Origin: Caldifarciminota bacterium
Lineage (GTDB): Bacteria; Hydrothermota; Hydrothermia; LBFQ01; DSFT01
Direction of reading: 5' to 3'
Length of the DNA: 28,537 nucleotides
Assembly (NCBI GenBank): GCA_025060695.1
Contig: JANXBH010000018.1
Location: forward strand, 1-28,537
Shown here: piece after piece, positions 1,138 to 28,458 of the stretch
Position numbering within the stretch: the stretch's first letter is position 1
Layout: each line of letters begins with the position of its first letter
Position numbers and translations under genes: made by a program
The notes under the pieces: generated by a model
Told to the model about the DNA's origin: nothing
The model's database searches: none
The model's input: only the letters and a program-made list of their open reading frames with translations

Positions 1138-1143
1138 TAAAAT
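1138..1143 (+). promoter_or_regulatory. TAAAAT -10-like box for the TolB-like gene
   Basis: TAAAAT is followed by seven bases and then the TTG codon at 1151. Seven is the commonest spacing in this window, which favours 1151 over the in-frame TTG at 1145. The inferred mRNA is leaderless. Confidence 0.55.
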
Positions 1144-1150
1144 TTTGGAC

Positions 1151-2347
1151 TTGATATTCTTCCTTATAAATCAGCTAATATTTAAAGGTGAAGAAAAATT
1201 CCTTGCTAATGTAAGGCAGTTGACATTCTCAGGAGAAAATGGAGAAGCATATTTTTCAAAAGATAATAACCTTATAGTATTTCAATCAAAAGGAGAAGGT
1301 GGAATTTATGTAATACTTGATGGAAAGTATATAAACCAAATTCAAATGAATTTAAATGAAATAAAAGCGTACGAATATGCCTTGAGAAATATTGGAAATA
1401 ATAAATATATGGTATTTGTCAAGGGAATATACGATACTATTGGATTGTTTAAAAATGTAAAATATGAAAGGTTTTTTATTAAATACTACTATGAATGCGA
1501 CCAGATATTTATAATGGATACGAATGGATTTATATTAAAGAAAGTATCAGTTGGTGGAGCGAATACTTGTGGATGGTTTTTAAATGACACTTTAGTTCTA
1601 TTTTCAAGTACTATAAAGAATGGAAAGGAATGCCCCAAAAATCTATATGCACAAGAGTATATAAAAAAAGGAATTTATGTATGGAGACTATTTAACTACG
1701 ATTTGTATGTATATAATTTAAAAAGTGATAGCTCATATCCTATATTTATAGATAACTACTACAAAGCGGAAGGTGAAGCGAATTTTAACGATACAATAGT
1801 ATTTACGTACTCAAAAGACAACGAATTGGATATATACCTTTTTAGTTTAAAAAACAGAAGTATAATTAAAAGGATTACTAATTTTGTAGGGTACGATGGG
1901 GGTGGAATGTTTTCACAAGATGGAAGATATATAGTATTTAGGGCATACCACTTAAAGGATAGTGCGGAAATTAAAGAATATAAGGAACTTTTAAGAAAGA
2001 ATTTAGTTAGACCAGAGGGTGTAGAAATTTATATATATGATTTAGTAAAGGATAGTTTTTGGCAAGTTACTAAATCAATAAAGGGTGTTTCAAATTTTGC
2101 TCCTTACTTTCACCCATCTGGAAAGTTTATAGTATTCTCGTCAAACTTACACGCCCCAAATACATTCAATTTTGAATTATATAAAATAGATATTGACGGA
2201 AAGAATTTAGAAAGAATTACATATTCTAATGGATTTAATTCATTTCCTATGTTCAGTAATGATGGAAAGAAGATTATATGGACTTCAAATAGAAATGGAA
2301 AAACAAGAAGAGATTTTAACATTTTTATTGCAGACTTTATTCAATAA
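1151..2347 (+). CDS. TolB-like PD40 beta-propeller protein, probably exported
   Basis: The protein has several PD40/WD40-like blades. The N-terminal NVRQLTFSGENGEAYFS is the classic opening blade of TolB-like PD40 proteins. Later blades include YDGGGMFSQDGRYIVF, FAPYFHPSGKFIVFSS and FPMFSNDGKKIIWTSN. Such propellers normally sit in the periplasm or extracellularly and bind partners; no enzyme motif is seen. A start at TTG 1151 gives 398 residues beginning MIFFLINQLIFK, a very short hydrophobic lead before the conserved part. TTG 1145 would add only two residues and lies one base from the -10-like box. The 3' end overlaps mnmA by 11 bp. The family assignment is strong, the specific role is unknown, and the start is moderately certain. 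Confidence 0.8.
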   Translation: MIFFLINQLIFKGEEKFLANVRQLTFSGENGEAYFSKDNNLIVFQSKGEGGIYVILDGKYINQIQMNLNEIKAYEYALRNIGNNKYMVFVKGIYDTIGLFKNVKYERFFIKYYYECDQIFIMDTNGFILKKVSVGGANTCGWFLNDTLVLFSSTIKNGKECPKNLYAQEYIKKGIYVWRLFNYDLYVYNLKSDSSYPIFIDNYYKAEGEANFNDTIVFTYSKDNELDIYLFSLKNRSIIKRITNFVGYDGGGMFSQDGRYIVFRAYHLKDSAEIKEYKELLRKNLVRPEGVEIYIYDLVKDSFWQVTKSIKGVSNFAPYFHPSGKFIVFSSNLHAPNTFNFELYKIDIDGKNLERITYSNGFNSFPMFSNDGKKIIWTSNRNGKTRRDFNIFIADFIQ

Positions 2348-3374
2348 TACCTGCTCCAACTAAATAGTCATCTATATATATAGCACCAACTTGTCCTCTT
2401 GCAGGTGAAAACTGTGGTTTTTCAAACTCAATTTCAACGTAGTTATTAAAAACCTTAATTCTTGCATCTGCAGGCTCATGAAGATTTCTTATTTTCACTT
2501 TTGCTATAAAATCACTTTCTAATTCTACAAAGAAATTTAAATTAACTAATTTTATAAATGAAGTATATGCATCCTCTTCAAATCCTAAAACTACGGTATT
2601 AGTTTCAGGAACTACATCTACTACATATGCTCTTTTCCCAAGTGCAATGTTTAAGTGTCTCCTTTGACCTATAGTATAAAGTGCATATCCCTTATGCTTT
2701 CCAACTATATTTCCATATTTGTCAATAAAATATCCCTCTTTTGGAATATAATTTCCCTTTTCAATAAGAAATTCTCTATAATCACTATCAACAAAACATA
2801 TATCCATAGAATCTACTCTCCTTGCATTAATCAAACCAATATCACTCGCCATTTTCCTAATCTCCTCCTTAGTATAGTCTCCTATTGGTAAAATCAAATT
2901 ATTTACAATTTCCCTTGTAAGATAGCTCAAAAAATATGACTGGTCCTTGCTTTTGTCCTTTGCTCTTGCAATTACTCTTTCACCTCTAAAAGTCCCAATT
3001 CTTGCATAATGTCCAGTTGCAAGCTTAGCATTTATACTTTTTGCATACTCAAAAAGTGCACCCATTTTATAGTCTCTATTACAAAAAACACATACATTTG
3101 GTACTCTTCCAGATAAATATTCGCTTATAAACATTCTTACTATGTTTTCTTTAAAAGCCTTTGAATAGTTTAAGAACTTAAATGGTATATTAAATTTTTT
3201 TGCAACTTTGTATGCAAGCCTTAGTGCATCAATTGAACAACAAGTCCTTGGATTCTTACTTTCATCATATAAAATCACATTCACTCCAATTACTTCATAA
3301 CCCATATTTTTTAGCAAATATATAGCTACTGAACTATCTACACCTCCCGATAGTCCCAAAACCACTCTATTCAT
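2337..3374 (-). CDS. mnmA: tRNA-specific 2-thiouridylase MnmA
   Basis: MnmA places sulfur on C2 of the wobble uridine of tRNA-Lys, -Glu and -Gln, using ATP and a persulfide relay. The 345-residue protein has the N-terminal PP-loop SGGVDSS (residues 9-15), the catalytic cysteine region VPNVCVFCN (Cys95, Cys98) followed by ATGHYAR, and the second catalytic cysteine in MDICFV (Cys193). YTIGQRRHLNIALG and the C-terminal beta-barrel ending SPARGQVGAIY are also typical. Length and motif order fit the family. The start is ATG 3374, seven bases after a TAAAAT box. It has its own box although it lies 17 bp behind the acyltransferase gene, so it may be transcribed separately. It overlaps the TolB-like gene tail to tail. 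Confidence 0.96.
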   Translation of the reverse strand: MNRVVLGLSGGVDSSVAIYLLKNMGYEVIGVNVILYDESKNPRTCCSIDALRLAYKVAKKFNIPFKFLNYSKAFKENIVRMFISEYLSGRVPNVCVFCNRDYKMGALFEYAKSINAKLATGHYARIGTFRGERVIARAKDKSKDQSYFLSYLTREIVNNLILPIGDYTKEEIRKMASDIGLINARRVDSMDICFVDSDYREFLIEKGNYIPKEGYFIDKYGNIVGKHKGYALYTIGQRRHLNIALGKRAYVVDVVPETNTVVLGFEEDAYTSFIKLVNLNFFVELESDFIAKVKIRNLHEPADARIKVFNNYVEIEFEKPQFSPARGQVGAIYIDDYLVGAGIIE

Positions 3375-3381
3375 ATATTAA

Positions 3382-3387
3382 ATTTTA
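3382..3387 (-). promoter_or_regulatory. TAAAAT box for mnmA
   Basis: On the minus strand GAACTTTAAAATTTAATAT runs directly into the mnmA ATG, with seven bases between TAAAAT and the start. It occupies almost the whole 17-bp gap behind the acyltransferase gene and leaves no room for a Shine-Dalgarno leader. Confidence 0.55.
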
Positions 3388-3391
3388 AAGT

Positions 3392-4243
3392 TCAATCCCA
3401 ATTAAAATCAAATGAAAACCAATGACTTGGATATTTTCTTAAAGTCCTTTCAAGATTTCTTAAGTAAAAATCCAACATTTTTTCAAAAGTCATATTTTCT
3501 TCATAATACACATCCTGAACTATTCCAAGGTATTTACCATTTCCTCTTATAACGTATGCAAAAACCATAGGAATTTTAAACTTCTCATTTATTTTAAAAA
3601 TACCAGCTGGTATTTTTCTTTTATGGTTAAACAAACTACACTCTATATAAGAAGTGCCCACAAGTCTATCTGGTGTTACTATTAATATCCCTTCACCACT
3701 ATTTAAAAATCTTATAATTTCCATAATTTCATTCATTAGAACAAGCCTTGCACCCTTACTTGACCTAAGCTCGTTTAAAAGCTTTAACCATCTTGGATCA
3801 ATCATCTCAATAATAACCATAACATTGTATCCAAGACAACTTATTAAATTTAATGCATATTCCCAATTTCCAATATGACCACTTAGAAGTATAACTTTCT
3901 TCTTTATTTTGTATACATTTTCAAAAACTTCAATATTTTCCAGACTTAGTTTTTCCAGAATTTGACTACAGCTTTTATATTTTACTTTTATAAAATCTGC
4001 AAAGTTTAGCATGTAGTTTTCAAACGTCTTAAAAACCATTTTATTATCAAAATCATTCAAAATTATCCTTAAATTATTTTTTATAGCATCCTTCCTTTTT
4101 TTATCAATAAAAAACCAAAATATAGCAATTAATTTAAAAACTAACCTTAGCAAGGAGTCTGGAATAAATCTTGAAATTACTATGAAAATCGCTAATGAAT
4201 ATAGTTTTAAATCATCAAGAAATCTATAAATTGCATTTAGCAT
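3392..4243 (-). CDS. LpxL/HtrB-like lysophospholipid acyltransferase
   Basis: This 283-residue protein matches the LpxL/HtrB lipid A acyltransferase superfamily. Its catalytic block is SGHIGNWEYA (His123 and Glu128 of the H-X4-E motif). It has a hydrophobic N-terminal segment (about residues 15-46), a conserved middle region (GEGILIVTPDRL), and the end FSFDFNWD. Members acylate lipid A precursors or related lipids at the inner membrane, which points to an outer-membrane-bearing cell, but the acceptor cannot be told from sequence. The start ATG 4243 abuts the stop codon of the S15 hydrolase gene with no gap and no Shine-Dalgarno site. Expression by coupling to that gene is therefore likely, although the two functions are not obviously linked. 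Confidence 0.85.
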   Translation of the reverse strand: MLNAIYRFLDDLKLYSLAIFIVISRFIPDSLLRLVFKLIAIFWFFIDKKRKDAIKNNLRIILNDFDNKMVFKTFENYMLNFADFIKVKYKSCSQILEKLSLENIEVFENVYKIKKKVILLSGHIGNWEYALNLISCLGYNVMVIIEMIDPRWLKLLNELRSSKGARLVLMNEIMEIIRFLNSGEGILIVTPDRLVGTSYIECSLFNHKRKIPAGIFKINEKFKIPMVFAYVIRGNGKYLGIVQDVYYEENMTFEKMLDFYLRNLERTLRKYPSHWFSFDFNWD

Positions 4244-6016
4244 TTAAAACATTACCATCAATTTAGCAAATTTCTTTCCAAGCTTTATAAAATAAATACC
4301 TTTTTTAAGATTTCTATTTAAAATTTTCCTTCCATTCATATCATAAACATAGTCCAGCAATTTACCACCACACAAAAATGAACCGTTTTTAAATAAACAA
4401 TCAATTTTTTCTTTTTCAGAAATTTCAGGAAAAACTAACATATCGTTTACTGGAAGAGAAATAAATGATGGATATATCTGCCCTGTAAAAACTTTATTTA
4501 GTGCAATAAGTTTGTTTGGGTCGTTTCTTCTAAATGGTCCTCCATTATTTGGATTTGGTTCGTATGATGGAAATTTTGATGAGGTGATATATAGCCTTAT
4601 TCTATGATTTTCCTTAAATACATATGCTGTATTTCTTAGTTTTATAGTAAATTGATAAATCTGATTAGGATTTAGTAAATCTTCCCTATCTACTCCATTT
4701 CTATTCCTCGCCCTTAATACTCCCTCAGTTATAAGTACACTTTTTCCATCCGGAAATACATCAGCAAGCATTACAATAAAGTCAGTATCTAATTTATCTG
4801 AACTTGCATATATATTTAAAAATGGCTGTCCAACAACTACTAAAGGATGAGTTAGTATGCTTGATGTATATATAATTACATCGTTTCTATTATGTAATGG
4901 ACTTAAGTCTCTTGGACCAAAAAGAATACTATCTACGTTAAATATACCAAAAAAGTCAAAACCTCCAATTGTAGGGACAGGATTATTGGGGTCATAGTAA
5001 TAGTAAAAACTATCCTTTAGATAATTTGGTAAGAAAAGTTTCAATGAATCTTTTACTAAAAACCAATTTTGATAGATTGTTTTACTTGGCGGAAAACTAT
5101 CAGCCTCTATCCACTTATTTTCACCCATTAGGTAAAACTTCACTCTCTTTACGTTACTCCAATCACCAACTTTCCTTGTCCAATATAAAAACCAGTAAAA
5201 ATGCAGTAAAGGCAAGTCTACTTTTGAGTTTTCTGGAAATATAAAATCACCAACAGTATCTCTATTTAACTTATGAGACCAAGGACCTATTAATATATAT
5301 TGATTATTCTTTGCTCTATAGTTCCCATATTTTCTAATATAGTTAAATGCATTTATTGCGCCTTCTGTAAACGCATCGAACCACCCTGTAATATGTAGCA
5401 TAGGAACATTAAAGTAGCTCAGTCTACTATATCCATTTATCCACGCCCAAGGAGTATTTTCTGAGTATATAGCATATTTTTCAATAGTATCAAGCCACAT
5501 AGTAGCACTTACTAAATTTAACCAATTTTCTACTATAAATTTTCTAAACACACCGTTATAAAATACTTCATGATATAGTGAAAAGCCTGAAATTGAAGGA
5601 GTTGCACAAGTTAAATTAAACCCTGTACCTGCAAGAAAATATTGAGTAAATCCTAAAGCAGAACCTCCAAATGTGCAAATTGTATCATTTGACCAGTGTT
5701 GATTAGTAATCCACGTGGCAATTTCTTTTCCATCCTGATTAGGTCCCCAACCATCGTTTAAAAATGGGCTTTTAATACCCCCACTTCCCCAATAACCCCT
5801 AAGTGTATTTACAACATATGCAAAGTTATTATTAACTATAAATGCTATGCCTAAGCTATCAAGAAAACCAAGCGTATCATATGGAGTTCTTACTAATAAT
5901 GTAGGAAATTTTTTATTTATAGTATCAGATGGAAGCCAAACATAAACCTTTAGTAATGTCCCATCATTCATTATAACATCAGTTTTATAGTGTATCCAAA
6001 AAACAAAATAATACAT
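4244..6016 (-). CDS. CocE/NonD family (peptidase S15-like) hydrolase with T9SS-like tail
   Basis: This is an alpha/beta hydrolase of the X-Pro dipeptidyl-peptidase/cocaine esterase family, 590 residues. The nucleophile lies in FGGSALG (Ser119), the acid in TGWFDAF (Asp214) and the base in GPWSH (His248), in the CocE order. A C-terminal beta-sandwich (about 360-520) fits the S15 C-terminal domain. After residue 535 a short domain ending with MNGRKI and KKGIYFIKLG resembles a type IX secretion sorting domain, so export to the surface or medium is inferred. The N-terminus MYYFVFWIHYK is hydrophobic but lacks a normal signal peptide. An in-frame TAA in the 11-bp gap behind truB prevents a longer N-terminus. 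The substrate (peptide or ester) is not determinable. Confidence 0.88.
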   Translation of the reverse strand: MYYFVFWIHYKTDVIMNDGTLLKVYVWLPSDTINKKFPTLLVRTPYDTLGFLDSLGIAFIVNNNFAYVVNTLRGYWGSGGIKSPFLNDGWGPNQDGKEIATWITNQHWSNDTICTFGGSALGFTQYFLAGTGFNLTCATPSISGFSLYHEVFYNGVFRKFIVENWLNLVSATMWLDTIEKYAIYSENTPWAWINGYSRLSYFNVPMLHITGWFDAFTEGAINAFNYIRKYGNYRAKNNQYILIGPWSHKLNRDTVGDFIFPENSKVDLPLLHFYWFLYWTRKVGDWSNVKRVKFYLMGENKWIEADSFPPSKTIYQNWFLVKDSLKLFLPNYLKDSFYYYYDPNNPVPTIGGFDFFGIFNVDSILFGPRDLSPLHNRNDVIIYTSSILTHPLVVVGQPFLNIYASSDKLDTDFIVMLADVFPDGKSVLITEGVLRARNRNGVDREDLLNPNQIYQFTIKLRNTAYVFKENHRIRLYITSSKFPSYEPNPNNGGPFRRNDPNKLIALNKVFTGQIYPSFISLPVNDMLVFPEISEKEKIDCLFKNGSFLCGGKLLDYVYDMNGRKILNRNLKKGIYFIKLGKKFAKLMVMF

Positions 6017-6024
6017 ATTTTAAA

Positions 6025-6030
6025 ATTTTA
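6025..6030 (-). promoter_or_regulatory. TAAAAT box of the S15 hydrolase gene, sharing the truB stop codon
   Basis: On the minus strand CTATAAAATTTTAAAATATG places TAAAAT eight bases before the hydrolase ATG. The first three bases of the box are the TAA stop codon of truB. Confidence 0.45.
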
Positions 6031-6861
6031 TAGCACTTTCAATGGTTTTAGTAGTTCGTTCTCTATCTTGCCAACTCCTATAAAATTTCCATCACAATAT
6101 ACTCTGTAAATACCTTCTTTATATTTATACCTTGTAATTTGTCCACTTTTAAATTTAAAGCAGTCAATTATTTCTATTTTTTCAAAAAAATAAAGTGCTT
6201 CATCTATACTTATAACTTTAAATTCACTGTCGTTTAAGCTGTGTGCATTTTCTAATTTAAAACTTCCAATTGCTATTCTTTTCAGTTCTAATACATAACC
6301 ATAGGTATTTAGTTTCTCTGCTAAGTCCCTTGCAAAACTCCTTACATAAAATCCACTACTAACTCTAAGAAAAATATCTGCTTCATTATTCACTTCGTAT
6401 ACACTTAAAACTTTTAGTTCGTATATTTTTACCGTTTTTGGTTTAATTTCAAAATCAATTCCTTCTCTTGAAAGCTCATATGCCCTTTTACCATGTATCC
6501 TTTTTGCTGAAAATTTAGGTGGAATTTGCTCATATTCCCTTGGAAAGTCCTCTATCACTTTTTGAAAAACACTAATATTCAACTTAAAACTACTATCTAC
6601 GTTTATTATATCCCCTTCAACATCAAGCGTATTAGTTTCTATTCCAAATTTTATTTTTGCAATATATGTCTTTTCAAGCCCTATTAGAAATTCTATAAAT
6701 TTCGTAGCTTTGTTTATACCAATTACCAATAAACCTTCCGCAAATGGGTCTAATGTACCTGAGTGCCCTATTTTTTTAAAACCCAAAATCTTCTTCAATA
6801 CTCTTATAACATCGTAAGAAGTATATCCTTTAGGTTTGTTTATCAAAATAAAACCATTCAT
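6028..6861 (-). CDS. truB: tRNA pseudouridine-55 synthase TruB
   Basis: TruB makes pseudouridine 55 in the T-loop of tRNAs. The 277-residue protein opens with GFILINKPKGYTSYDVI and has the catalytic-aspartate motif GHSGTLDPFAEGLL (Asp38). It also has the KRIHGKRAYELSREG segment and the SSGFYVRSFARDL motif, all in family order. A short C-terminal region (about 215-277) could be a small PUA-like extension. The start is ATG 6861, seven bases after a minus-strand TAAAAT box in the 30-bp region shared with gcvPB. Its stop codon forms part of the next gene's box. With mnmA it is the second tRNA-modification gene in this stretch, but the two appear to be separate transcription units. Confidence 0.96.
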   Translation of the reverse strand: MNGFILINKPKGYTSYDVIRVLKKILGFKKIGHSGTLDPFAEGLLVIGINKATKFIEFLIGLEKTYIAKIKFGIETNTLDVEGDIINVDSSFKLNISVFQKVIEDFPREYEQIPPKFSAKRIHGKRAYELSREGIDFEIKPKTVKIYELKVLSVYEVNNEADIFLRVSSGFYVRSFARDLAEKLNTYGYVLELKRIAIGSFKLENAHSLNDSEFKVISIDEALYFFEKIEIIDCFKFKSGQITRYKYKEGIYRVYCDGNFIGVGKIENELLKPLKVL

Positions 6862-6891
6862 TTTTTAAATTTTAAACTTTAAAATTTAAAT
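6862..6891. promoter_or_regulatory. 30-bp divergent region with two TAAAAT boxes (truB / gcvPB)
   Basis: The whole spacer is A/T except one base and is nearly palindromic. The minus-strand TAAAAT (6869-6874) ends seven bases before the truB ATG; the plus-strand TAAAAT (6880-6885) ends six bases before the gcvPB ATG. Only five bases separate the two boxes, so any -35 contacts must fall inside the opposite coding sequence. Confidence 0.55.
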
Positions 6892-8358: not shown

Positions 8359-9555
8359 ATTCTTAGAAAGTGCAAGAAGCTTATTATTGAAAACAAGAAT
8401 TTCTTTAATGTCTTTAACATTACTATAAGTATAAAATCTCTTTTCTTTCATAGAAAATCTATAAACTCCACTATTGCTTGCAATATAAATAAAGTTTCCA
8501 TATATAAGACAATCATTTACATTACCAAGTGAAAAACTATATGCTACTTCACTATTGTTTAAACTTCTTATACCATATCTACTACACAAGAAACTATCTA
8601 CAACACTTATATACCAATCAGATGGCTGTTTTATATAGGCTAAACTATCATCCTTAAGGTAAATATCATATACTCTTCCATCGTATAACCTTGTAAAACC
8701 ATCATCAAATTCATATACACCATCTATAGATACAATATAGAACTTATTTTTTAGAAACCTTATTTTTTGAAAGTCTATTGCTTTCATTGTTTTAAAAACT
8801 TCATCATCTTCGTCTATTCTATATATGTTATTTTTGCAAAATACAAATCTATCTATAATCCTTGCAATATCAGTACAAATGTCAATTTTAATAAAATTAA
8901 CCTGATTAAATTCGCTGTCCAACACATCTATACCTTTTTCTCCAAGTATATATAGCTTATTTTCTCTAATAGTAAATGACTTAAATATTTTATTGAAAGT
9001 GCCTATGCTTATTGAATCTTTTAATGTAAGTGAATTTTTATAGTAAATCCTAAGACCTAAACCTTCAGAGCCTACAAGGTTATAGTCTAAATACTCAAAA
9101 GACTTAGTAAAATTTACAAAACCTTTTTTTACATTATAAATACCATTTTGACTAAAATTTAAACTATGTGAAGACCAATACACATTTGAATAAAAGGTGT
9201 CCTCCTCAAAACCTGCATCATTTAGCACTTTTCTATAGCTTTCATAGTCCAAAACTAACTTATAGTCATCAGTTATACCAAATCTTTTCGGAATTTCTAT
9301 GTTTGATTTAACTAAATATGGACTTTGATGAAAATTCCAATTAAAACCAATTTTGTATATGCTATTGTTTGAGATGTAATATATCCAATTACCCATGTGT
9401 GCAATAAAATTTACTTTTGAAAATGTGATATATTGATATATAACCTTGTAATTGTTTGCATCTAATACTAAAATCCCAGTTTCACTTCCAAGTGAAATTT
9501 TAAAATCCTTTACAAAAATTGAATAAATATAAGTAAAAGGAGCAATTGCTATCAA
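8329..9555 (-). CDS. Unrecognised, probably exported beta-strand-rich protein
   Basis: I do not recognise a family. The 408 residues are rich in short beta-strand-like segments with recurring patterns, such as NSIYKIGF, NGIYNVKK, NKLYILGEKGIDVLD, DGVYEFDDG and SGVYRFSMKEKRFYTYSNV. This looks like a beta-propeller or similar fold with poorly conserved blades. The N-terminus MIAIAPFTYIYS is hydrophobic without early basic residues, like other probable exported proteins here. The start codon is TTG 9555, six bases after a TAAAAT box lying across the 3' end of the preceding FemAB-like gene. An enzymatic role is not apparent. The gene is real by its length, its place in a tightly packed series and the box at its start. 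Confidence 0.75.
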   Translation of the reverse strand: MIAIAPFTYIYSIFVKDFKISLGSETGILVLDANNYKVIYQYITFSKVNFIAHMGNWIYYISNNSIYKIGFNWNFHQSPYLVKSNIEIPKRFGITDDYKLVLDYESYRKVLNDAGFEEDTFYSNVYWSSHSLNFSQNGIYNVKKGFVNFTKSFEYLDYNLVGSEGLGLRIYYKNSLTLKDSISIGTFNKIFKSFTIRENKLYILGEKGIDVLDSEFNQVNFIKIDICTDIARIIDRFVFCKNNIYRIDEDDEVFKTMKAIDFQKIRFLKNKFYIVSIDGVYEFDDGFTRLYDGRVYDIYLKDDSLAYIKQPSDWYISVVDSFLCSRYGIRSLNNSEVAYSFSLGNVNDCLIYGNFIYIASNSGVYRFSMKEKRFYTYSNVKDIKEILVFNNKLLALSKNLIYILPLNF

Positions 9556-9557
9556 AT

Positions 9558-10325
9558 TTAAATTTTAAAGTAAACGTTATATCTGTATTTTATAGTTCCA
9601 AAGGAAGATTTGATATAGCCTACGGAAGATGTGGTTTCCAAGCCAAAGTCTAAAAATTCTATCTTATTTTCAATTGCCCATTTAGCTGATATATAAAATA
9701 GAAATTCACCAATAGAAAAGCTCTCAAATTCGTAATATCCAGATAACCAAAGCAAGGCATAATTTTTTAATTTTAAAATGAGTATACCACCAAGATAGGT
9801 ATTTCCTAAAACAACATTCAAAAGACGAAGATAATCTTTTAATAGAAGAATGTTTTCTTTCTTGTAAATTTTATGATATCTTGAATATAAATTAGCATAG
9901 CTTATATAGAACTTATCAAATAATTCAAATCCTTCAACAACCTCTATACCAAGTTTCTTTTGCTTATTTATTAACTTTTTTATACTTCTGTATCTGCTTT
10001 TTTTCATGTTTTTATGTAAATCTTCAAGACTTTCAGGAATTTGCAAAATATAAGTAAAAACCTCCTTTTTATTAAGAAAACTTACATCTATCTTATTTTC
10101 AAAGTCATAAATAAATAGCCTAAGGAACTTTTTTGAAATTAATTTCAAAAACTGATTATCTACGCTATCTATAAATCCCCCATAGAATCCATATGGTAAG
10201 GAATACGCCCTTTTTATTATTAAACCTTTTGAAATTATTGGCAAAGGATAAATAGTGTAAATTTTACCTTTTGAAAAAATTGATAGTTTTCTTATAAAAC
10301 TTTCATCGTAAAAAGGATTTTTCAA
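9558..10325 (-). CDS. FemAB/BioF2-like GNAT-fold acyltransferase
   Basis: The 255-residue protein matches the FemAB-like/acetyltransferase_6 superfamily. It has the characteristic basic helix KKSRYRSIKKLINKQKKLG (about residues 108-126), a middle helical region, and the terminal block of a GNAT core. That block is ILILKLKNYALLWLSGYY, then a helix (FLFYISAKWAIENK) and LDFGLETTSSVGYIKSSFG. Relatives move aminoacyl or acyl groups onto cell-wall or polysaccharide precursors; the substrate here is unknown. The start is TTG 10325, sharing TTGA with the stop of the upstream beta-barrel-like gene, so translation is probably coupled. The final codons (TTT AAA ATT TAA) overlap the promoter box of the next gene. 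Confidence 0.75.
   Translation of the reverse strand: MKNPFYDESFIRKLSIFSKGKIYTIYPLPIISKGLIIKRAYSLPYGFYGGFIDSVDNQFLKLISKKFLRLFIYDFENKIDVSFLNKKEVFTYILQIPESLEDLHKNMKKSRYRSIKKLINKQKKLGIEVVEGFELFDKFYISYANLYSRYHKIYKKENILLLKDYLRLLNVVLGNTYLGGILILKLKNYALLWLSGYYEFESFSIGEFLFYISAKWAIENKIEFLDFGLETTSSVGYIKSSFGTIKYRYNVYFKI
9562..9567 (-). promoter_or_regulatory. TAAAAT box inside the 3' end of the FemAB-like gene
   Basis: On the minus strand ACTTTAAAATTTAAATTTG carries TAAAAT six bases before the TTG start at 9555. The box encodes part of the last residues (FKI) of the upstream protein. Confidence 0.5.
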
Positions 10326-10717: not shown

Positions 10718-10755
10718 AGTCAAAATTTTAAGGTAAAAAACTTTAAAATTTACAC
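10718..10755. promoter_or_regulatory. 38-bp divergent region with two TAAAAT boxes (barrel gene / hutI)
   Basis: The minus-strand TAAAAT (10725-10730) is seven bases from the ATG at 10717. The plus-strand TAAAAT (10744-10749) is six bases from the hutI TTG at 10756. Thirteen bases separate the boxes. Confidence 0.5.
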
Positions 10756-14259: not shown

Positions 14260-14266
14260 TCTCCAA

Positions 14267-14272
14267 AGTTTA
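14267..14272 (-). promoter_or_regulatory. TAAACT box for the GlmL-like gene
   Basis: On the minus strand CAACTTTAAACTTTGGAGA leads into ATG 14259. TAAACT is a one-base variant of the common box and has the usual seven-base spacing. Confidence 0.4.
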
Positions 14273-14288
14273 AAGTTGACATAAAAAA

Positions 14289-14722: not shown

Positions 14723-14726
14723 AATA

Positions 14727-15944: not shown

Positions 15945-15981
15945 ATAGTAAATTTTAAAGTTTTGCTTTAAAATTTTAAGA
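15945..15981. promoter_or_regulatory. 37-bp divergent region with two TAAAAT boxes ('asnB-like' / clpX)
   Basis: The minus-strand TAAAAT (15952-15957) and plus-strand TAAAAT (15969-15974) both lie seven bases from their start codons. Each sits in CTTTAAAATTT, forming an inverted repeat around GTTTTG. Eleven bases separate the boxes. Confidence 0.55.
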
Positions 15982-19590: not shown

Positions 19591-19603
19591 TAGTTTTAAG
19601 CTT

Positions 19604-19609
19604 TAAAAT
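19604..19609 (+). promoter_or_regulatory. TAAAAT box for the T9SS-tailed protein gene
   Basis: AAGCTTTAAAATTTAACT runs into ATG 19616 with six bases between box and start. An in-frame TAA just upstream excludes a longer N-terminus. Confidence 0.55.
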
Positions 19610-19615
19610 TTAACT

Positions 19616-20597: not shown

Positions 20598-20605
20598 GTA
20601 GATTA

Positions 20606-23212
20606 ATGCTTTTAGTTTTATTTAAAATAATTGACAATGAATTAGAAGAAAAACTTAGAACTTTACATAAAGACAGCTTTATAGATATTCTAATTGTCTT
20701 AAAAGAACAGAAATTACTATCAAATATAAAAAATCCGAAGTTCAATGTAGAATATCTCAAAGCTAATCACCTAAGTAGTCAAGGTCCAGTTATGAATTTT
20801 TTAAAATCGTTGGATATAAAGAATTTAAAGCAATTTTGGGTAATAAATGCAATTTATGCAAAGATTAAAGTTTCTAATGTAGAAAGTCTTAAAAGTAGAG
20901 GCGAAATTGAAAGAATCTATTATGCAAGAGATAATTTTTTTATAGTCTCTGATATAAAAGAAGGAAATAGAATTTTATTAGATACTCCTACATATGGTAT
21001 TAAACTAATAAAGGCGGATAGTGTATGGATTAAATACAATATAAAAGGCAGAGGTGTAATATTAGGCAGTATAGACACAGGAGTTGACACAAGTCATCCT
21101 GCGCTAAAGGGAAAAATTTTAAGCTATTGGCTTGATGCAGTAAATTATCAAAAATATCCATACGATGACCATAATCATGGAACTCATACCATTGGAACTA
21201 TGGTAGCGGATTCAAATGTGGGAGTAGCACCAGAGGCAAAAGTTATAGCCTGTAAGGCATTTAATAAATATGGAAGAGGTAGTGCATTTTCAATTTTAGA
21301 CTGTATTCAGTTTTTTACTGAACTTAAAGCGGAGTATGGACTGGATATTAGAATTATTAATAACTCTTGGGGAACACTTGGAAATAATACTTGGCTTTGG
21401 AATGCTATATGGAATGGATGGCGTGCAAATGGAATAATTCCTATATTCTCTGCAGGAAATTCAGGTCCAAATTTAAATACTATATTAAGCCCTGCGGACT
21501 ATCCACATGTAATTGCGGTAGGAGCGGTAGATTGGAATGATACCGCTACAACTTTTTCAAGTAGGGGACCTGCACCAAGTAGTCCACCATATAACGATAA
21601 TTCGTTTTGGTCAAGAATTGACTGGAATTATATAAAACCTGATATTATGGCACCAGGAAGAATGGTCTATTCTACTATTAGAAATGGTAGTTATGCATAT
21701 GGAAATGGAACATCCATGGCATCACCGCACGTTGCAGGGGCAATTGCTCTAATGCTTGAAAAAAACCCAAATTTAGAATACTATCAAATTTATCAAATAT
21801 TAACTGATATAGCAAATGACAAAAATTGTAATCAAGCAGATTGGCCAAATAACCACTGTGGTTGGGGAAGGATAAATGTTCTAAAAGCTATAGAGAATAT
21901 AAACCAAGGAAATAGCCCATTTTTAGTATATATAGATAGGTTTATATACGATAAAAATCAAAATGGAAAAATTGAAGATTTTGAAACTGTTTATGTAGAT
22001 ATAAAAATTAGAAATAGTGGTTATGATACATTGAAGAATGTATATGCAAAGCTTTATACAAACTCAAATTTAGTTAATATATTAGATGATTCCATATTTT
22101 TCGGAGATTTAGCCCCTCAGACTGAAATAAATGCATTCTCAAGAAGCGACAGCTTCAAGTTCATGGCAAATAATATAGATGATGGAGATAGTGTAGTATT
22201 TACGATAAATATAGTGAACAAAAACTACAAGTTTAAAATTTTTCTTGGAGAAATTCCTATAGGTACTGCAACAATTGATACCACTATATCAAGTTTTTCA
22301 TTTTCAAGTAATGGAGAATTTAAAGAATTTAAATTCCCTAAAGATAGTGCAAATTTATTAACTTTTGGTTCTATTGCATTTGGAAATTCAGTTAATTATT
22401 TAAAGGACAATTTCTACAATTCAAGAGACTTATATAGCACTTGGGGTATATATAGAAGTTATTATTTTCCGGGAGAATGCTATAGTTTTGTTTCAACAGA
22501 TGGAAACATAGAAGTTAAGGGTATATTTTATGGACTTGAAAATGATAGCATCACACATTTAAAGTATAGGATAAAGAATATCTCAAATAACCTAATAAAC
22601 AATTTACTATTTGGACTATTTGTAGATTTTGATATAAAGTCGCCAAGTAATGACTTTGGTTGGTCTATAAAGTGCTCTCCAAGTTATGGAGGAATAGTTT
22701 TTAAGTCAGATGACTATAACTACTACATAGGTCTTTTTCTTTCTAATGGAGTTTACAAAACATCAAGAATTTTTCCAAATAATATTCAGTTTTCTAAAGC
22801 TAATAAGTTTATGATATTAGATGGAATACTTGGAGATAGTATAAATTTAAGTCCAAATAACTACTCTATATCAGTATCTGCAGGACCATACTTTATAAAC
22901 CCAAACGATAGCATAATGTTAGATTTTATACTTCTTGCGTCATTAGATACAATAAAGTGCAAATTTACCAATTTAGTTCAAAATGAAATATTCAAGTTTG
23001 ACTACAAAAATCGTAATATAATTTTAAATCTTGAAAAAGAAACGGATTTTGAATATATTATATATAAACTGGATGGGAGAATAGTTAATAGCTATAGTGC
23101 AAAATTAAAAAAAGGTAGTTATAGCTTTAAACTAAATGCGAAAAAGGGAATTTACATTTTAGACATGAAACTATTTGGAAAAAGACAAAGACTAAAGATT
23201 ATTTTATTTTAA
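20606..23212 (+). CDS. Secreted subtilisin-like serine protease (S8) with T9SS-like tail
   Basis: The 868-residue protein contains an N-terminal inhibitor-I9-like propeptide (about 10-110). A subtilase domain follows, with catalytic Asp157 (GSIDTGVDTSHP), His191 (DHNHGTHTIGTM), the oxyanion Asn region NNSWG and Ser370 (GNGTSMASPHVAG). A long beta-rich C-terminal region (about 410-790) follows, starting with a calcium-loop-like DKNQNGKIEDFE, and the last about 70 residues resemble a T9SS sorting domain (YKLDGRIVNS, then KKGIYILDMKL). All catalytic residues are present, so an active extracellular protease is likely. The N-terminus MLLVLFKIID is short and hydrophobic. No strong Shine-Dalgarno site or standard-spaced box is seen. 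Its 3' end overlaps glmM by 14 bp tail to tail. Confidence 0.93.
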   Translation: MLLVLFKIIDNELEEKLRTLHKDSFIDILIVLKEQKLLSNIKNPKFNVEYLKANHLSSQGPVMNFLKSLDIKNLKQFWVINAIYAKIKVSNVESLKSRGEIERIYYARDNFFIVSDIKEGNRILLDTPTYGIKLIKADSVWIKYNIKGRGVILGSIDTGVDTSHPALKGKILSYWLDAVNYQKYPYDDHNHGTHTIGTMVADSNVGVAPEAKVIACKAFNKYGRGSAFSILDCIQFFTELKAEYGLDIRIINNSWGTLGNNTWLWNAIWNGWRANGIIPIFSAGNSGPNLNTILSPADYPHVIAVGAVDWNDTATTFSSRGPAPSSPPYNDNSFWSRIDWNYIKPDIMAPGRMVYSTIRNGSYAYGNGTSMASPHVAGAIALMLEKNPNLEYYQIYQILTDIANDKNCNQADWPNNHCGWGRINVLKAIENINQGNSPFLVYIDRFIYDKNQNGKIEDFETVYVDIKIRNSGYDTLKNVYAKLYTNSNLVNILDDSIFFGDLAPQTEINAFSRSDSFKFMANNIDDGDSVVFTINIVNKNYKFKIFLGEIPIGTATIDTTISSFSFSSNGEFKEFKFPKDSANLLTFGSIAFGNSVNYLKDNFYNSRDLYSTWGIYRSYYFPGECYSFVSTDGNIEVKGIFYGLENDSITHLKYRIKNISNNLINNLLFGLFVDFDIKSPSNDFGWSIKCSPSYGGIVFKSDDYNYYIGLFLSNGVYKTSRIFPNNIQFSKANKFMILDGILGDSINLSPNNYSISVSAGPYFINPNDSIMLDFILLASLDTIKCKFTNLVQNEIFKFDYKNRNIILNLEKETDFEYIIYKLDGRIVNSYSAKLKKGSYSFKLNAKKGIYILDMKLFGKRQRLKIILF

Positions 23213-24494
23213 ACTTTATAAATTCAAGAAGGTAGTCATAAAAATTCTTGTCTAAACTTTCCGCATATATTCTAATAATTGGCTCAGTATTTGAAGGTCT
23301 TATATGTATCCAACTATTGTTTTTTCTTAGATACAATCCATCTTCAAGGTTCTTTTCAAAATCTTTAAACTCCCCTAAAAATAAAGACTTTAGCTTCTCA
23401 AATTCAACATTCTCTACCTTTTCCTTTATATTGTAAGTTTTTGGTAAATTATTTAAAATTTTTATAAGTCTTCCTTCTATATAACTATTTAAAATTAGTC
23501 CAAGAGATAAAAGACCATCTCTTGTTTTATTAAATTTTGGATAAATTATTCCACCATTTCCCTCACCACCTGCTATACCATTAATCTCAATTATCTTTCT
23601 TAAAACATTAGCCTCTCCAACCTTTGAACGAATTACATTCACTCCATACTCCCTTGCAATAAACTCAACTAAAATAGTAGTAGAATAATTAACTACAATA
23701 TCTCCTTTTTCCCTTTCTAAAATTTCTGAAATTCCTACGACTAAAGTTAGTTCTTCAGACAGTATTCCATAATTCTTCACACCAAAAACTAACCTATCAC
23801 CATCAGGGTCAGTTGCAAATACTAAGTCGCATTTATCCAAAAGTCCTTCTAATGACTTTAAATATTCTGGTCTTGGTTCTGGATTTCTTGTAAAAATTCC
23901 AGAATCCTCACAATTTATCTTTATTATATTCCTTATTCCAAACTTTTCAAGAAGCTCAGGAAAAACCTTATAGGTTGCACCATTTACACAATCAATGCCA
24001 ATTTTCATATTACTATTAACTAACTTAAAACCTACAAAATCCACTATACTATCTAAATGCAACTTGTATGCATTCTCTGAATATACTACTTCACCAATAC
24101 ATGAAGAAAACTTCATTTTTCCTAAATAGCTTTTTAAAACTTCAAGCTCATCTTCAAATAGAAATCTATCCCCTATGGCTAATTTCAATGCATTGTACTC
24201 ACTTGGATTATGACTTGCAGTTATAATTATACCTCCATCTAAGCTTAGCGATTTTATAATATATAACGTAGTAGGTGTGGGGCAAACAGAGAGTGTATAT
24301 ACATTTTTACACGTAGATAGTGCTGTATTTAAAACTATTGGATATAGAACTTTTCCTGATAGCCTTGTATCTCTTGAAATTACTAAATTTTTGCCCTCAA
24401 GAAAATTACAAAATGCATTAGTCCAAACTAAAGCACTATATGGATTAATCTCATCAGGATAAATTCCCCTTATACCTGATACTGATATTTTCAA
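23199..24494 (-). CDS. glmM: Phosphoglucosamine mutase / phosphohexomutase
   Basis: This alpha-D-phosphohexomutase most likely interconverts glucosamine-6-phosphate and glucosamine-1-phosphate for UDP-GlcNAc synthesis; a phosphomannomutase/phosphoglucomutase role is the alternative. The 431 residues include SGIRGIYP at the start, the phosphoserine loop TASHNPSEYNALK (Ser94), the metal site DPDGDRL (Asp229, Asp231, Asp233), sugar-binding GEGNGG, and the phosphate-binding RPSNTEPIIRIYAE at the C-terminus. The start is TTG 24494, seven bases behind a TAAAAT box that contains the stop codon of the flippase gene. Position beside flippase, methyltransferase and GNAT genes suits a role in envelope glycan supply. 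Confidence 0.88.
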   Translation of the reverse strand: MKISVSGIRGIYPDEINPYSALVWTNAFCNFLEGKNLVISRDTRLSGKVLYPIVLNTALSTCKNVYTLSVCPTPTTLYIIKSLSLDGGIIITASHNPSEYNALKLAIGDRFLFEDELEVLKSYLGKMKFSSCIGEVVYSENAYKLHLDSIVDFVGFKLVNSNMKIGIDCVNGATYKVFPELLEKFGIRNIIKINCEDSGIFTRNPEPRPEYLKSLEGLLDKCDLVFATDPDGDRLVFGVKNYGILSEELTLVVGISEILEREKGDIVVNYSTTILVEFIAREYGVNVIRSKVGEANVLRKIIEINGIAGGEGNGGIIYPKFNKTRDGLLSLGLILNSYIEGRLIKILNNLPKTYNIKEKVENVEFEKLKSLFLGEFKDFEKNLEDGLYLRKNNSWIHIRPSNTEPIIRIYAESLDKNFYDYLLEFIKFKIK

Positions 24495-24501
24495 GAAATA
24501 A

Positions 24502-24507
24502 ATTTTA
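24502..24507 (-). promoter_or_regulatory. TAAAAT box for glmM, sharing the flippase stop codon
   Basis: On the minus strand GAAACTTTAAAATTTATTTC leads to TTG 24494 with seven bases of spacing. The TAA of the box is the stop codon of the flippase gene (24505-24507). Confidence 0.5.
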
Positions 24508-25827
24508 AAGTTTCAATATGGCAAAAACAAATGTAAACACTAAAACTATTAAAAACACTATATAATCAAGGGGCTTATAAATATCACCTCTCACAAAAAT
24601 TCTAAATATTACTATTCTTGATATGAAAAGCACAATTATAGAAAGAAGATATGATATTGCTGTTCCTTCTTTTGCATACATGTTGGTAAATATAAATAAG
24701 AAAGCAAGAGTGGATATTGAGTAAATAGCATAACTAACAAGATTTAAGTCAGTTCTTCCCTTTGCTTCAAGATAAATCTCAAATGGAGAAGAAAATGTCC
24801 CAATTAAAACCTGAAAAGAAAGAAGTATTAACACACCATATCCTAATACATAGTCTTTTCCCAATAGCAAAAGTACCCATTCTCCAAAAAATATAAAGAA
24901 TAACAAAGAAATATAAACTAAAACAGCATTTAAAATGGCATATTTTCTTAGAATCCTTATTGCTATAATTTCTTTTTTTTGAGAAATTAAGAAACTAATT
25001 TTTGGAATAAGAACTGAACTAAATGCTAAATTTAAATTCCATAGAATAGAGGTAATAAAATTTGCACCTCTATATATACCTGCATTTATGCTATCTTTTA
25101 TACTACCAAGAATAATTACACCAATATTATCAGAGAGATAGCTAAGTCCATATCTAAAAAATCCGGGGAGCGAGAATTTAAACCATTCTTTAAACTCAAA
25201 AGAAGACTTATATTTTATAAATTTTAGTTCATTCTTTGAATACAAAAGTAAATGAAAAAAATTTACAATTGACTTAAATACAAGTGATAGCACTATTCCA
25301 ATTTCTTTAAATGGTAAAAATAACCACCAGACAATTAAAGTAAATAATCTAACTATATTGGAAATAACATTGTTTGATAGCGAGACAAGTTTAAATTTCT
25401 CAAATCCAGTAAGATAAGAAGATAAATATGTTGCAAAAATAGAAAAAGGAATAGAAAGTGAATAAAAAAACAGAAATTTTGCATAGTCATTTGACTTTAA
25501 AACATTAATACTAAGAGCTTTTGAAAATAAGAAAAATACTAAAAAAAGAATTAAACCTATGATAAAGGCATATATCAGAGATAGCTTTAAAATACCACTT
25601 ATATATTCAAAACTATTATTTCCTCTATAATACGCTGTAAATCTTCTAAGTGCCCCTGTTAAAAAACCACCCAAAATTACGACAAACAAATTAATAAAAC
25701 TAACTGCAACGGAATAACTTCCAAAATCCTTAACCGAAACCATTTTAATAACAAGAATACCACTAATGAAATTCAGTATCTGAGAAACAATACTACTTGA
25801 AAATACAAAAGCAATATTTTTTAGCAT
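24505..25827 (-). CDS. Polysaccharide (Wzx/MATE-like) flippase
   Basis: The 440-residue, very hydrophobic protein has about 12-14 membrane segments and the layout of the polysaccharide-biosynthesis/MVF superfamily. The N-terminal part reads SSIVSQILNFISGILVIKM, then VSVKDFGSYSVAVSFINL, the typical 'x-D-F-G-x-Y' signature. GGFLTGALRRFTAYYRG follows. The second half has SINAGIYRGANFITS, another common flippase segment. It probably flips lipid-linked glycans across the inner membrane. ATG 25827 lies three bases after the methyltransferase stop codon with no Shine-Dalgarno site, so the pair is probably co-translated. No glycosyltransferase gene is in the window, so the cargo is unknown. Confidence 0.85.
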   Translation of the reverse strand: MLKNIAFVFSSSIVSQILNFISGILVIKMVSVKDFGSYSVAVSFINLFVVILGGFLTGALRRFTAYYRGNNSFEYISGILKLSLIYAFIIGLILFLVFFLFSKALSINVLKSNDYAKFLFFYSLSIPFSIFATYLSSYLTGFEKFKLVSLSNNVISNIVRLFTLIVWWLFLPFKEIGIVLSLVFKSIVNFFHLLLYSKNELKFIKYKSSFEFKEWFKFSLPGFFRYGLSYLSDNIGVIILGSIKDSINAGIYRGANFITSILWNLNLAFSSVLIPKISFLISQKKEIIAIRILRKYAILNAVLVYISLLFFIFFGEWVLLLLGKDYVLGYGVLILLSFQVLIGTFSSPFEIYLEAKGRTDLNLVSYAIYSISTLAFLFIFTNMYAKEGTAISYLLSIIVLFISRIVIFRIFVRGDIYKPLDYIVFLIVLVFTFVFAILKL

Positions 25828-25830
25828 AAA

Positions 25831-26523
25831 TCAAACTTTTTTAAATAAACCGACTAAATATTTACCTTTACTATAACCAAAATTAAATAACTGATAGTCA
25901 ATAAACTTATAAATAGGTTTTAAAAATGAAAACCTTCCAATTCCTCTTGGCTTAATATTTAAAATTGTCCCAACTTTTACTAATTCTAAATTTGATTCCT
26001 TTGAGAGTTTTTCATAGTCCTCAATAGTAAAAGCCCATCTATGTAATATATTTCCATTTTCAATAACTGGAAAGTATCTTTTGTTTATTTTTCCATATAG
26101 TCTATAATTAGTTGAAAGAAAATAACCGCCTTTTTTTAATATTCTTGAAATTTCCATAAATGCCATTTTAATATAGTCCCAATCTAAAAGATGTTGAATT
26201 ACCTGAAAAGAAAATATAAAATCAAAAGTTTCATCCTTTATAGGAATTTTATGAACTGATGCTTGAAATACCTTAAAGCCATCAATTTTGCAAATTCTTA
26301 AGCCTTCAAATGAATAATCAAAACCAAATACATTATAGTCTCTTAAGTTAATTAGTTTTAACCCCACACCACAACCCGCATCAAGAATAAACCTTGGCTT
26401 TATTTTCTTTATAATGTTTTTTAAATAAAAATTTTCTAATTCATTTGGCCATAGCCATATATTAGGAAGATTTTTCCCATATTCCTTATATGTTCTATCG
26501 TAAATATTTTTTACCCCTTCCAT
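25831..26523 (-). CDS. SAM-dependent class I methyltransferase
   Basis: The 230-residue protein has motif I ILDAGCGVGLKL (about residues 46-57), a motif II-like acidic residue in FGFDYSFEG, VHKIPIKDETFDFIFSFQVIQHL with motif IV-like contacts, and RILKKGGYFL. This is the Methyltransf_11 pattern of small-molecule or sugar/lipid methyltransferases. The substrate is unknown; location before a flippase and behind a GNAT-like gene suggests a cell-surface glycan or lipid. ATG 26523 is seven bases behind a TAAAAT box that overlaps the stop codon of the upstream gene. Confidence 0.85.
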   Translation of the reverse strand: MEGVKNIYDRTYKEYGKNLPNIWLWPNELENFYLKNIIKKIKPRFILDAGCGVGLKLINLRDYNVFGFDYSFEGLRICKIDGFKVFQASVHKIPIKDETFDFIFSFQVIQHLLDWDYIKMAFMEISRILKKGGYFLSTNYRLYGKINKRYFPVIENGNILHRWAFTIEDYEKLSKESNLELVKVGTILNIKPRGIGRFSFLKPIYKFIDYQLFNFGYSKGKYLVGLFKKV

Positions 26524-26530
26524 TTTGCAA

Positions 26531-26536
26531 ATTTTA
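26531..26536 (-). promoter_or_regulatory. TAAAAT box for the methyltransferase, sharing the upstream stop codon
   Basis: On the minus strand ATTACTTTAAAATTTGCAAA leads to ATG 26523 with seven bases of spacing. TAA of the box is the stop codon (26534-26536) of the GNAT-like gene. Confidence 0.5.
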
Positions 26537-27412
26537 AAGTAATGAAAAGAATTTCTTTATCAAATTAGGATGTTCAAATTCATATCTATACAACTTATAA
26601 AAATCCTTAGTCCATATGGTCTTGTATTCACTCTCCCCTTTCATAAAATTAAATTCGTGATAGTTTTTTTCTATATAGTATAATAGCATAAACCACACTG
26701 ACATTTTATTAGGAGAAAAGTAGTAAAAATCCTCCTTAAAACCTGAAGCCCACCAAAAGGCTTTTTTATTATAGTTTATAACCAAGTTTATAGCTATAAT
26801 ATCATTATTTGCTTTCAATACAAAGGTATCTAATATCCCAAGATTTTCAAAATTCTCAAAAACATTAAACATTGCCCTTTGATATAAACTATCAATCCAA
26901 GTTGTTTCTATATGTCTTGAAGTTATAAAATTCACAAGTAAATTAAAATATGGTTTAAAACTCTCCATTTTTGAAAACTCATAATTTAGTTTTTTTAGTC
27001 TGTTAATAGAATTTTTTATATTCCTTCTCCACTTATAACTTAAACTCCTTAGGATTTTCTCTGGACTATCTAACTCTAACAAGTTTATATAGTATACCTT
27101 TGAAAATTCTACAACTTTTGGTTTAGTCTCTGAACTATCTAATATTTGCTTAATCCTTGAAAATTCCAATATATTCTTAAAAACTGCTTTATAGTAAATT
27201 TCCCTTTTTAACATTTTTTCAATTTCATCCTTACTAATTTCTAAGTCCCACCAGTCAACAAGGTCATCAATTGCATAATGTAGTCTTTTAATCCTTCCAA
27301 CTTTTCTTATAATAAAACCATTTCCTAAGTCCTTAAAGCTATACTTGGACTTAACATAATTAAAGAATATATCAAATATCTCTTTACTGCATAGTAAAAA
27401 AGACTCCTTCAT
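26534..27412 (-). CDS. Second GNAT/FemAB-like (acetyltransferase_6) protein
   Basis: The 292-residue protein carries the CelD/FemAB-type signature. A basic helix YKWRRNIKNSINRLKKLN (about 126-143) is followed by helices, then GILDTFVLKANNDIIAINLVI, FWWASGFKEDFYYFSPNK (about 218-235), a helix WFMLLYYIEK and FNFMKGESEYKTIWTKDF. Such proteins transfer acyl or aminoacyl groups to sugars or peptides of the envelope; the substrate is unknown. It is distinct from the paralogue at 9558-10325. ATG 27412 lies inside the 3' end of mtnA with a 29-bp overlap and no Shine-Dalgarno site, so coupled translation is likely. Confidence 0.78.
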   Translation of the reverse strand: MKESFLLCSKEIFDIFFNYVKSKYSFKDLGNGFIIRKVGRIKRLHYAIDDLVDWWDLEISKDEIEKMLKREIYYKAVFKNILEFSRIKQILDSSETKPKVVEFSKVYYINLLELDSPEKILRSLSYKWRRNIKNSINRLKKLNYEFSKMESFKPYFNLLVNFITSRHIETTWIDSLYQRAMFNVFENFENLGILDTFVLKANNDIIAINLVINYNKKAFWWASGFKEDFYYFSPNKMSVWFMLLYYIEKNYHEFNFMKGESEYKTIWTKDFYKLYRYEFEHPNLIKKFFSLL

Positions 27413-28352
27413 CTGTAATATATCCTGTTATTAAGCTTTTTGGAGTGATATCAAATGCATAATTAAGAACATCCACACTATCTATGGTTATATTGACATC
27501 TTTAATTTTTATAACTTCATCTTTACCTCTTATTTCAATTTTTATATCCTCTATTTTTGAAAAGTTATCCATTGTTGAACTTGGAAATGCAGTATAAAAT
27601 GGTATATTAAAATAATTTGACAAAATTGCTATATTTAAAGTTCCTATTTTATTTATTAAAGTTCCATCTTTCAATACTCTATCCGCACCAACTATTACTA
27701 AATCTATATAACCTTTTGACATTAAAAATGCAATAGAATTGTCAGTTATTAGTTTATACGGAATTTTGAGTTTTTCTAATTCATATACTGTTAGTCTTGA
27801 ACCTTGTAAATATGGTCTTGTTTCTGGAACAATTACTTCTTTAACTAAACCTTTTTCGTATGCCATGTATATTATACCCAGAGCCGTCCCAATTCCTGTT
27901 GTAGCTAAAAATCCAGTATTGCAATATGTTAAGACATTACTCTTTTTTTTAAATACTTCAATACCATTTTTTGCAATTTTTAAGTTCATCTCTTTTTCCC
28001 TATTGTCTAATTCTATTACGAAATTATACAATTCCTCCTTATAGTTTTTTGATAATAGTAAAATCTTTTCTATTTCACTAAGAACATTAAATAAATTTAC
28101 TGCGGTCGGTCTAGTGCTTTTTAAAATTTCTACTGATTTAATAGTTTCTTCCTTTTCTTTATTATTTAAAACCTCAATTAAAATTGCATATGCACTTGCA
28201 ATTGCAATAAGTGGAGCACCCCTTATAGCCATATCCCTTATTAAACTTGCCATCTTAATAGCATTTTCTACTTCTATATAAACTTCTTCAAATGGTAATT
28301 TTCTTTGGTCTAAGATATAAAGTCTATTGTTTTGAAAAATTAAGGGTTTTAT
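27384..28352 (-). CDS. mtnA: Methylthioribose-1-phosphate isomerase MtnA, probable ATA start
   Basis: MtnA converts 5-methylthioribose-1-phosphate to methylthioribulose-1-phosphate in methionine salvage; a related ribose-1,5-bisphosphate isomerase or eIF2B-like role is less likely. Motifs are MAIRGAPLIAIA, TRPTAVNLFNVL, the catalytic cysteine in LTYCNTGFLATTGIGTALG (Cys144), PETRPYLQGSRLT, the catalytic aspartate in VGADRV (Asp224) and NKIGTLNIA. Homologues have an N-terminal LxDQRKLP block before MAxxIRDMxIRGAP. Here KPLIFQNNRLYILDQRKLP is encoded upstream of ATG 28253, in frame, without any ATG, GTG or TTG before the next stop. ATA 28352, eight bases behind a TAAAAT box, is the best start and gives 322 residues. 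No other methionine-salvage gene is nearby. Confidence 0.85.
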   Translation of the reverse strand: MKPLIFQNNRLYILDQRKLPFEEVYIEVENAIKMASLIRDMAIRGAPLIAIASAYAILIEVLNNKEKEETIKSVEILKSTRPTAVNLFNVLSEIEKILLLSKNYKEELYNFVIELDNREKEMNLKIAKNGIEVFKKKSNVLTYCNTGFLATTGIGTALGIIYMAYEKGLVKEVIVPETRPYLQGSRLTVYELEKLKIPYKLITDNSIAFLMSKGYIDLVIVGADRVLKDGTLINKIGTLNIAILSNYFNIPFYTAFPSSTMDNFSKIEDIKIEIRGKDEVIKIKDVNITIDSVDVLNYAFDITPKSLITGYITDEGVFFTMQ

Positions 28353-28360
28353 TATATAAA

Positions 28361-28366
28361 ATTTTA
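28361..28366 (-). promoter_or_regulatory. TAAAAT box for mtnA
   Basis: On the minus strand CCATTAAAATTTTATATA precedes ATA 28352, giving eight bases of spacing. This supports an initiation site near 28352 rather than at the internal ATG 28253. Confidence 0.4.
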
Positions 28367-28458
28367 ATGGATATGTTTTAGATGTTTAAGGATAACAGAG
28401 AGAAAACAACAAAATACACAAAGCTTTAAAATTTTAAAACAAATGCAAGTTTTATTCT

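Follow-up and report, generated by a model that had tools for sequence, protein, structure and literature searches.

Known leaderless systems and the box of the window

TA-led leaderless genes have been found in 207 of 953 bacterial genomes, with the form TAtAAT in low-GC groups, and in Actinobacteria and Deinococcus-Thermus more than 20% of genes are of this kind (Zheng et al., PMC3160421). According to the GeneMarkS-2 results quoted in PMC9581028, 21.6% of bacterial species show leaderless transcription. In Deinococcus, a -10 motif lying 6-7 bp before ORFs was shown by mutation to be a promoter (PMC12340547).

The genes described here resemble those of Deinococcus-Thermus (PMC12340547; TA-led genes of PMC3160421) in having no Shine-Dalgarno sequence (SD) but a -10-like box that lies 6-7 bp upstream of the ORF. 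There, promoter activity was demonstrated by mutation, the layout concerns nearly one third of D. radiodurans genes, and the GC-rich genomes carry a motif of 6 nt, TANNNT. The element described here, in contrast, spans ~13 bp, (A/G)CTTTAAAATTTT, comes from another lineage with a genome of 29% GC, and is conserved at tRNA and rRNA genes too. Like the leaderless genes of Actinobacteria and other bacteria (PMC3160421; PMC9581028), the putatively leaderless genes are mixed with SD-led ones in one genome, but promoter core, GC content and lineage differ, and apparent AUA, AUU and CUG starts occur. Low-GC bacteria such as Lactococcus (PMC3160421) have extended -10 promoters, with a TG ahead of TATAAT; these share with our box a longer -10 block that replaces the -35, whereas ours has no TG, is flanked by CTT on the upstream and TTT on the downstream side of the hexamer, and reads TAAAAT instead of TATAAT. 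The leaderless principle is of a known style; for the box variant and for this lineage we found no previous account. In a literature search we found no description of the long TAAAAT box, of its use at tRNA genes or of its change between sister families, an absence that is no proof.

The window is the whole stretch of 28,537 nt of a Caldifarciminota bacterium, contig C9 of a genome of 1.50 Mb (77 contigs, 94.9% complete, 28.9% GC) that was analysed almost whole for the genome-wide counts. Genes were called with a home-made dicodon ORF finder, taking the leftmost ATG, GTG or TTG and making no use of the box; 1,311 genes were predicted, 1,300 of them usable. The TTG and GTG starts of boxed genes are those chosen by the gene finder, without protein evidence.

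A preliminary description of the window had listed fifteen starts preceded by a TAAAAT-type box. The box was recovered at each of them with the spacings given there (nine at 7 nt, four at 6 and two at 8). The form ACTTTAAAATTTA (PWM 16.5 bits) recurs on the minus strand at 3379-3391 (7 nt before ATG 3374), 9559-9571 (6 nt before TTG 9555), 15949-15961 (7 nt before ATG 15944) and 24499-24511 (7 nt before TTG 24494), and on the plus strand at 6876-6888 (6 nt before ATG 6892) and 10740-10752 (6 nt before TTG 10756). Also on the plus strand are ACTATAAAATTTT at 1134-1146 (7 nt before TTG 1151; 14.5 bits), the consensus box GCTTTAAAATTTT at 15965-15977 (7 nt before ATG 15982 of the ClpX gene; 18.8 bits) and GCTTTAAAATTTA at 19600-19612 (6 nt before ATG 19616; 17.2 bits). 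The minus strand carries GCTATAAAATTTT at 6022-6034 (8 nt before ATG 6016; 15.2 bits), AGTTTAAAATTTA at 6866-6878 (7 nt before ATG 6861; 12.7 bits), which overlaps the divergent box of 6892, ACCTTAAAATTTT at 10722-10734 (7 nt before ATG 10717; 16.9 bits) and ACTTTAAAATTTG at 26528-26540 (7 nt before ATG 26523; 15.6 bits). The box of ATG 14259, ACTTTAAACTTTG at 14264-14276 (-) (7 nt; 13.2 bits), differs in having TAAACT. Spacing is alike for ATG and TTG starts, as had been proposed, except that the start at 28352 is neither: CCATTAAAATTTT at 28358-28370 (-) (12.3 bits) lies 8 nt before an ATA opening the mtnA frame.

Another consensus box GCTTTAAAATTTT, read by eye at 28423-28435 (+), lies ~62 nt before ATG 28495, which has its own SD (GGGAGG) and illustrates the leadered alternative; this gene runs past the window end. 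Divergent pairs with back-to-back or overlapping boxes are seen at 6866-6888, 10722-10752 and 15949-15977, their start codons ~30-40 nt apart. Window genes devoid of a box are mainly those close behind a co-directional gene.

The box across the genome and in relatives

TAAAAT ends 6-10 nt upstream of the leftmost start in 349 of the 1,300 genes, compared to 21.7 ± 4.6 (maximum 32) in 40 runs with dinucleotide-shuffled upstream sequence. The peak expected from the preliminary description is thus real, although its range of 6-8 nt was slightly too narrow. Among sites of at least 13 bits, ATG is found 61, 88, 35, 59, 30 and 15 times at 6, 7, 8, 9, 10 and 11 nt, respectively; spacings thus run from 6 to 11 nt and peak at 7 and 9. 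There are 575 such sites, 389 of them 4-12 nt upstream of an in-frame start codon, against 78 in all in an order-3 Markov genome.

Aligned on the box, the consensus reads (A/G)-C-T-T-TAAAAT-T-T-T and sums to 15.7 bits over its columns; its core, long and strongly conserved, can also be written (A/G)CTTTAAAATTT. The bases preceding the hexamer are conserved at 88% (C), 81% (T) and 92% (T), the hexamer at 92-100% and the following T's at 99%, 92% and 62%. T-12, A-11 and T-7 of the hexamer are conserved at 99-100%, as in a sigma-70 -10 element, and the tRNA 5′ ends limit the distance of the hexamer from the putative +1. CTT stands where the TG of an extended -10 would be expected. A -35 at fixed distance was searched for and is absent from protein genes, in keeping with the preliminary description: the classical arrangement, TTGACA 15-19 nt upstream of the -10, is not found there (at least 5/6 match in 5.4% of mRNA boxes versus 4.5% shuffled), and no base is conserved farther upstream of the box. 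The tRNA boxes may have a weak -35 tendency (11% versus 4.5%, n=27). Thirty-six strong boxes classed as 'intergenic other' lie 5-11 nt before the starts of unpredicted frames, many of 67-121 codons, and small genes were likely missed at these places.

Box and SD are distributed differently according to gene context. The PWM box is present 5-11 nt upstream of 64% of divergent genes versus 0.2% in shuffles, and TA[AT]AAT at this distance precedes 60% of divergent versus 4% of overlapping co-directional genes. When the PWM is used and starts are corrected, divergent genes fall into four classes: box at the start (73%), box followed by a leader (12%), SD only (3%) and no signal (12%). Among overlapping co-directional genes, 6% are boxed. 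The box had been called near-universal; this is true of the first genes of transcripts (the 73% of divergent genes) but not of all genes, ~30% of which have TA[AT]AAT at 5-11 nt. SD sequences are found at 8% of divergent genes, 24% of overlapping co-directional genes and 39% of genes at gaps of 0-14 nt. Box and SD occur together at 1 of the 1,300 genes, and strong-SD genes have no box at 5-11 nt, some SD genes carrying it farther upstream. Boxed genes lack an SD although the anti-SD is intact in the canonical 16S 3′ tail, GGATCACCTCCTTT. As for TA-led leaderless genes, the -10-like signal is found ~6-10 bp before the start and is concentrated at the first genes of transcripts. Of 479 overlapping operon genes, 69% have neither box nor SD, which is consistent with coupled translation.

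The box also precedes genes for stable RNAs. It was found within 110 nt upstream of 36 of the 44 tRNA genes, compared to 2.4% of random stretches: directly upstream in 32 cases, 7-21 nt from the mature 5′ end, and before the first tRNA of the cluster in four. Several of the eight tRNA genes left are later cluster members or lie downstream of the 16S gene. The rRNA operon has a box upstream of 16S. As a separate observation, no RNase P RNA (RF00010) was detected in the genome, but it encodes a HARP-type, protein-only RNase P that matches TIGR03875 with 123.9 bits (cut-off 95.3; G000:C22:7718-8149 (-), L278), from profile position 39 and with a reported in-frame TGA, seemingly at the translation edge.

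Two genomes of the same family (G033 and G034, ~50-55% GC at the loci read) keep (C/G)CTTTAAAATTT(T) at most tRNA genes. In the sister family f2 (G036, G042), most tRNA boxes read TTATAATAT or TATAATAT, also apparently without -35 (loci L249, L252, L254, L255, L259, L261, L264, L268, L271, L273 and L276). Counts of TAAAATN{6,10}ATG were 342 versus 41 for the backwards control in G033 and 345 versus 40 in G034. Those of TATAATN{6,10}ATG were 167 versus 6 (G037), 173 versus 9 (G041), 81 versus 7 (G019) and 53 versus 6 (G055), with ratios of ~1.0-1.2 in distant families such as f34 and f36. These excesses indicate that the -10-adjacent layout is widespread in the phylum, the long TAAAAT form belonging to the same family. 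Exact CTTTAAAATTT was rejected as a phylum marker, being enriched in the family only; the ratios understate the signal, since TTTAAAATTTC, the backwards control, is a variant of the box too.

Transcription start, sigma factor and competing readings

The box, its position and context, its presence at tRNA and rRNA genes, the lack of a -35 and the conservation in relatives are, with high confidence, explained overall by a single-block housekeeping core promoter, with start codons placed at or near +1 to give leaderless or near-leaderless mRNA. In this model, (A/G)CTTTAAAATTTT would be an extended -10 element of the sigma-A type, TAAAAT replacing TATAAT, recognised by the primary sigma factor and working without a -35. 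Transcription would begin ~6-8 nt after TAAAAT. In most protein genes that come first in their transcript, +1 would then coincide with the start codon or adjoin it at spacing 6-8 and precede it by 2-4 nt at spacing 9-11, and the ribosome would start such an mRNA from its 5′ end. Operon-internal genes would use an SD or neither signal, and a minority of leadered genes would have the box farther upstream, some with an SD.

The tRNA genes set a limit on +1: as the closest box lies 7 nt from a mature 5′ end, transcription must begin at most 8 nt downstream of TAAAAT. For a +1 at the customary 6-8 nt, spacing 6-7 would place it on the start codon or at most 2 nt away. The sequence following the box at spacing 9-10 and at tRNAs, A-purine-pyrimidine-T, suggests that +1 is at position 6-7 and that leaders measure 2-4 nt. 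A T precedes the start codon at boxed genes, but it is common at SD genes too (51%) and is therefore only suggestive, not proof, of a pyrimidine-purine +1. Given the spread of spacings over 6-11 nt, short leaders or a flexible +1 are required for some of the genes. Could nearly all genes instead have uniform leaders of 2-5 nt, with few mRNAs strictly leaderless? A-purine-pyrimidine-T at tRNAs and at spacing 9-10 is compatible with this, +1 being at 6-7, but the peaks at 6-7 nt leave room for only 0-2 nt if +1 is at 6-8, and we consider such uniform leaders unlikely. The evidence is best read as leaderless to near-leaderless mRNA (0-4 nt), most mRNAs probably beginning on or within ~4 bases of the start codon. 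The leaderless transcription proposed in the preliminary description is in this way supported by the geometry, except that genes with spacing 9-11 probably have 2-4 nt leaders.

The genome encodes a primary sigma factor (a 542-codon frame resembling RpoD/SigA) and two more sigma factors, a 292-codon frame at C1:37189 and an ECF-like one at C22:4896. The existence of the latter two, and a motif unusual for a primary sigma, would suit recognition of the box by an alternative factor. However, a box used by tRNA and rRNA genes and by the majority of first genes has a housekeeping role, and the sister family has a classical TATAAT at the same place, which makes this improbable compared to recognition by the primary sigma. 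In sigma region 2.4, the residue equivalent to E. coli T440, which has a role at -12, is I in this genome and M in the same genus, whereas the remaining relatives read have T or S (L215 and L218 of the own genus compared to L219-L238). A change at this position as the cause of the box is ruled out, since T is retained in G033 and G034, whose box is the same.

A rival reading makes the box a signal for translation initiation, present in mRNAs transcribed from promoters farther upstream and acting as a non-SD ribosome-binding site of the kind proposed for Bacteroidetes. In its favour are the AT-rich composition, a spacing of 6-10 nt resembling that of SD, and the fact that the box substitutes for SD instead of adding to it. 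Such a signal would be expected at translated genes and not at tRNA genes. Because the same box precedes tRNA and rRNA genes, as sigma-70 -10 elements also do, it is a promoter, as the preliminary description had held, and not a ribosome-binding site. Moreover, operon-internal genes almost always lack the box, although they too have to be translated, the 16S 3′ terminus is canonical and shows no complementarity to the box, and some SD genes carry it farther upstream; the probability of a translation signal is very low. Two further candidates were rejected: an altered anti-SD, the 16S ending canonically, and an archaeal-type TATA box ~25 bp from +1, which is impossible as +1 would land inside tRNAs. 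An artefact of AT-rich background (28.9% GC) and of leftmost-start choice, with the box TAA acting as in-frame stop at spacings 6 and 9 and so biasing leftmost starts, has a negligible chance, given the excess at 7, 8 and 10 as well, the dinucleotide null, the 13-bp consensus including a conserved C and the same box in genomes of 50% GC.

Apparent non-AUG starts and significance

At four boxed genes there is no ATG, GTG or TTG at the right place, 6-8 nt after the box. The gene for S-methyl-5-thioribose-1-phosphate isomerase, mtnA (27384-28352 (-)), has an apparent AUA start at spacing 8 and no in-frame ATG, GTG or TTG at the box; its ATA-started frame matches TIGR00512 from residue 3 to profile position 2. 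Outside the window, murJ (C3 (-), i=5876) has an apparent ATT start at spacing 6, with an NCBIfam match from residue 3 to profile position 2-3. For lepB (C66 (+), i=39393), with an apparent CTG start at spacing 7, the NCBIfam match runs from residue 15 to profile position 6. The fourth, an MFS-type transporter gene recognised by eye only (C13 (+), i=8753), has an apparent ATA start at spacing 6. These genes appear to start at AUA, AUU or CUG, a sequencing error being possible in single cases. It is conceivable, though we would rather bet against it, that promoter position and not the codon fixes the translation start: the ribosome would take the mRNA 5′ end, AUA, AUU, CUG or UUG nearby would serve, and the 13-bp block without -35 would be a general gene-start signal. 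The apparent AUA, AUU and CUG starts offer a test of whether the 5′ end alone defines the start.

Box type differs between the sister families (TATAAT versus TAAAAT) while the distance to the gene is unchanged, a natural case of genome-wide rewriting of a promoter code. With such a box, promoters and start codons become readable from sequence throughout an uncultivated lineage, which corrects annotation and predicts RNA starts.
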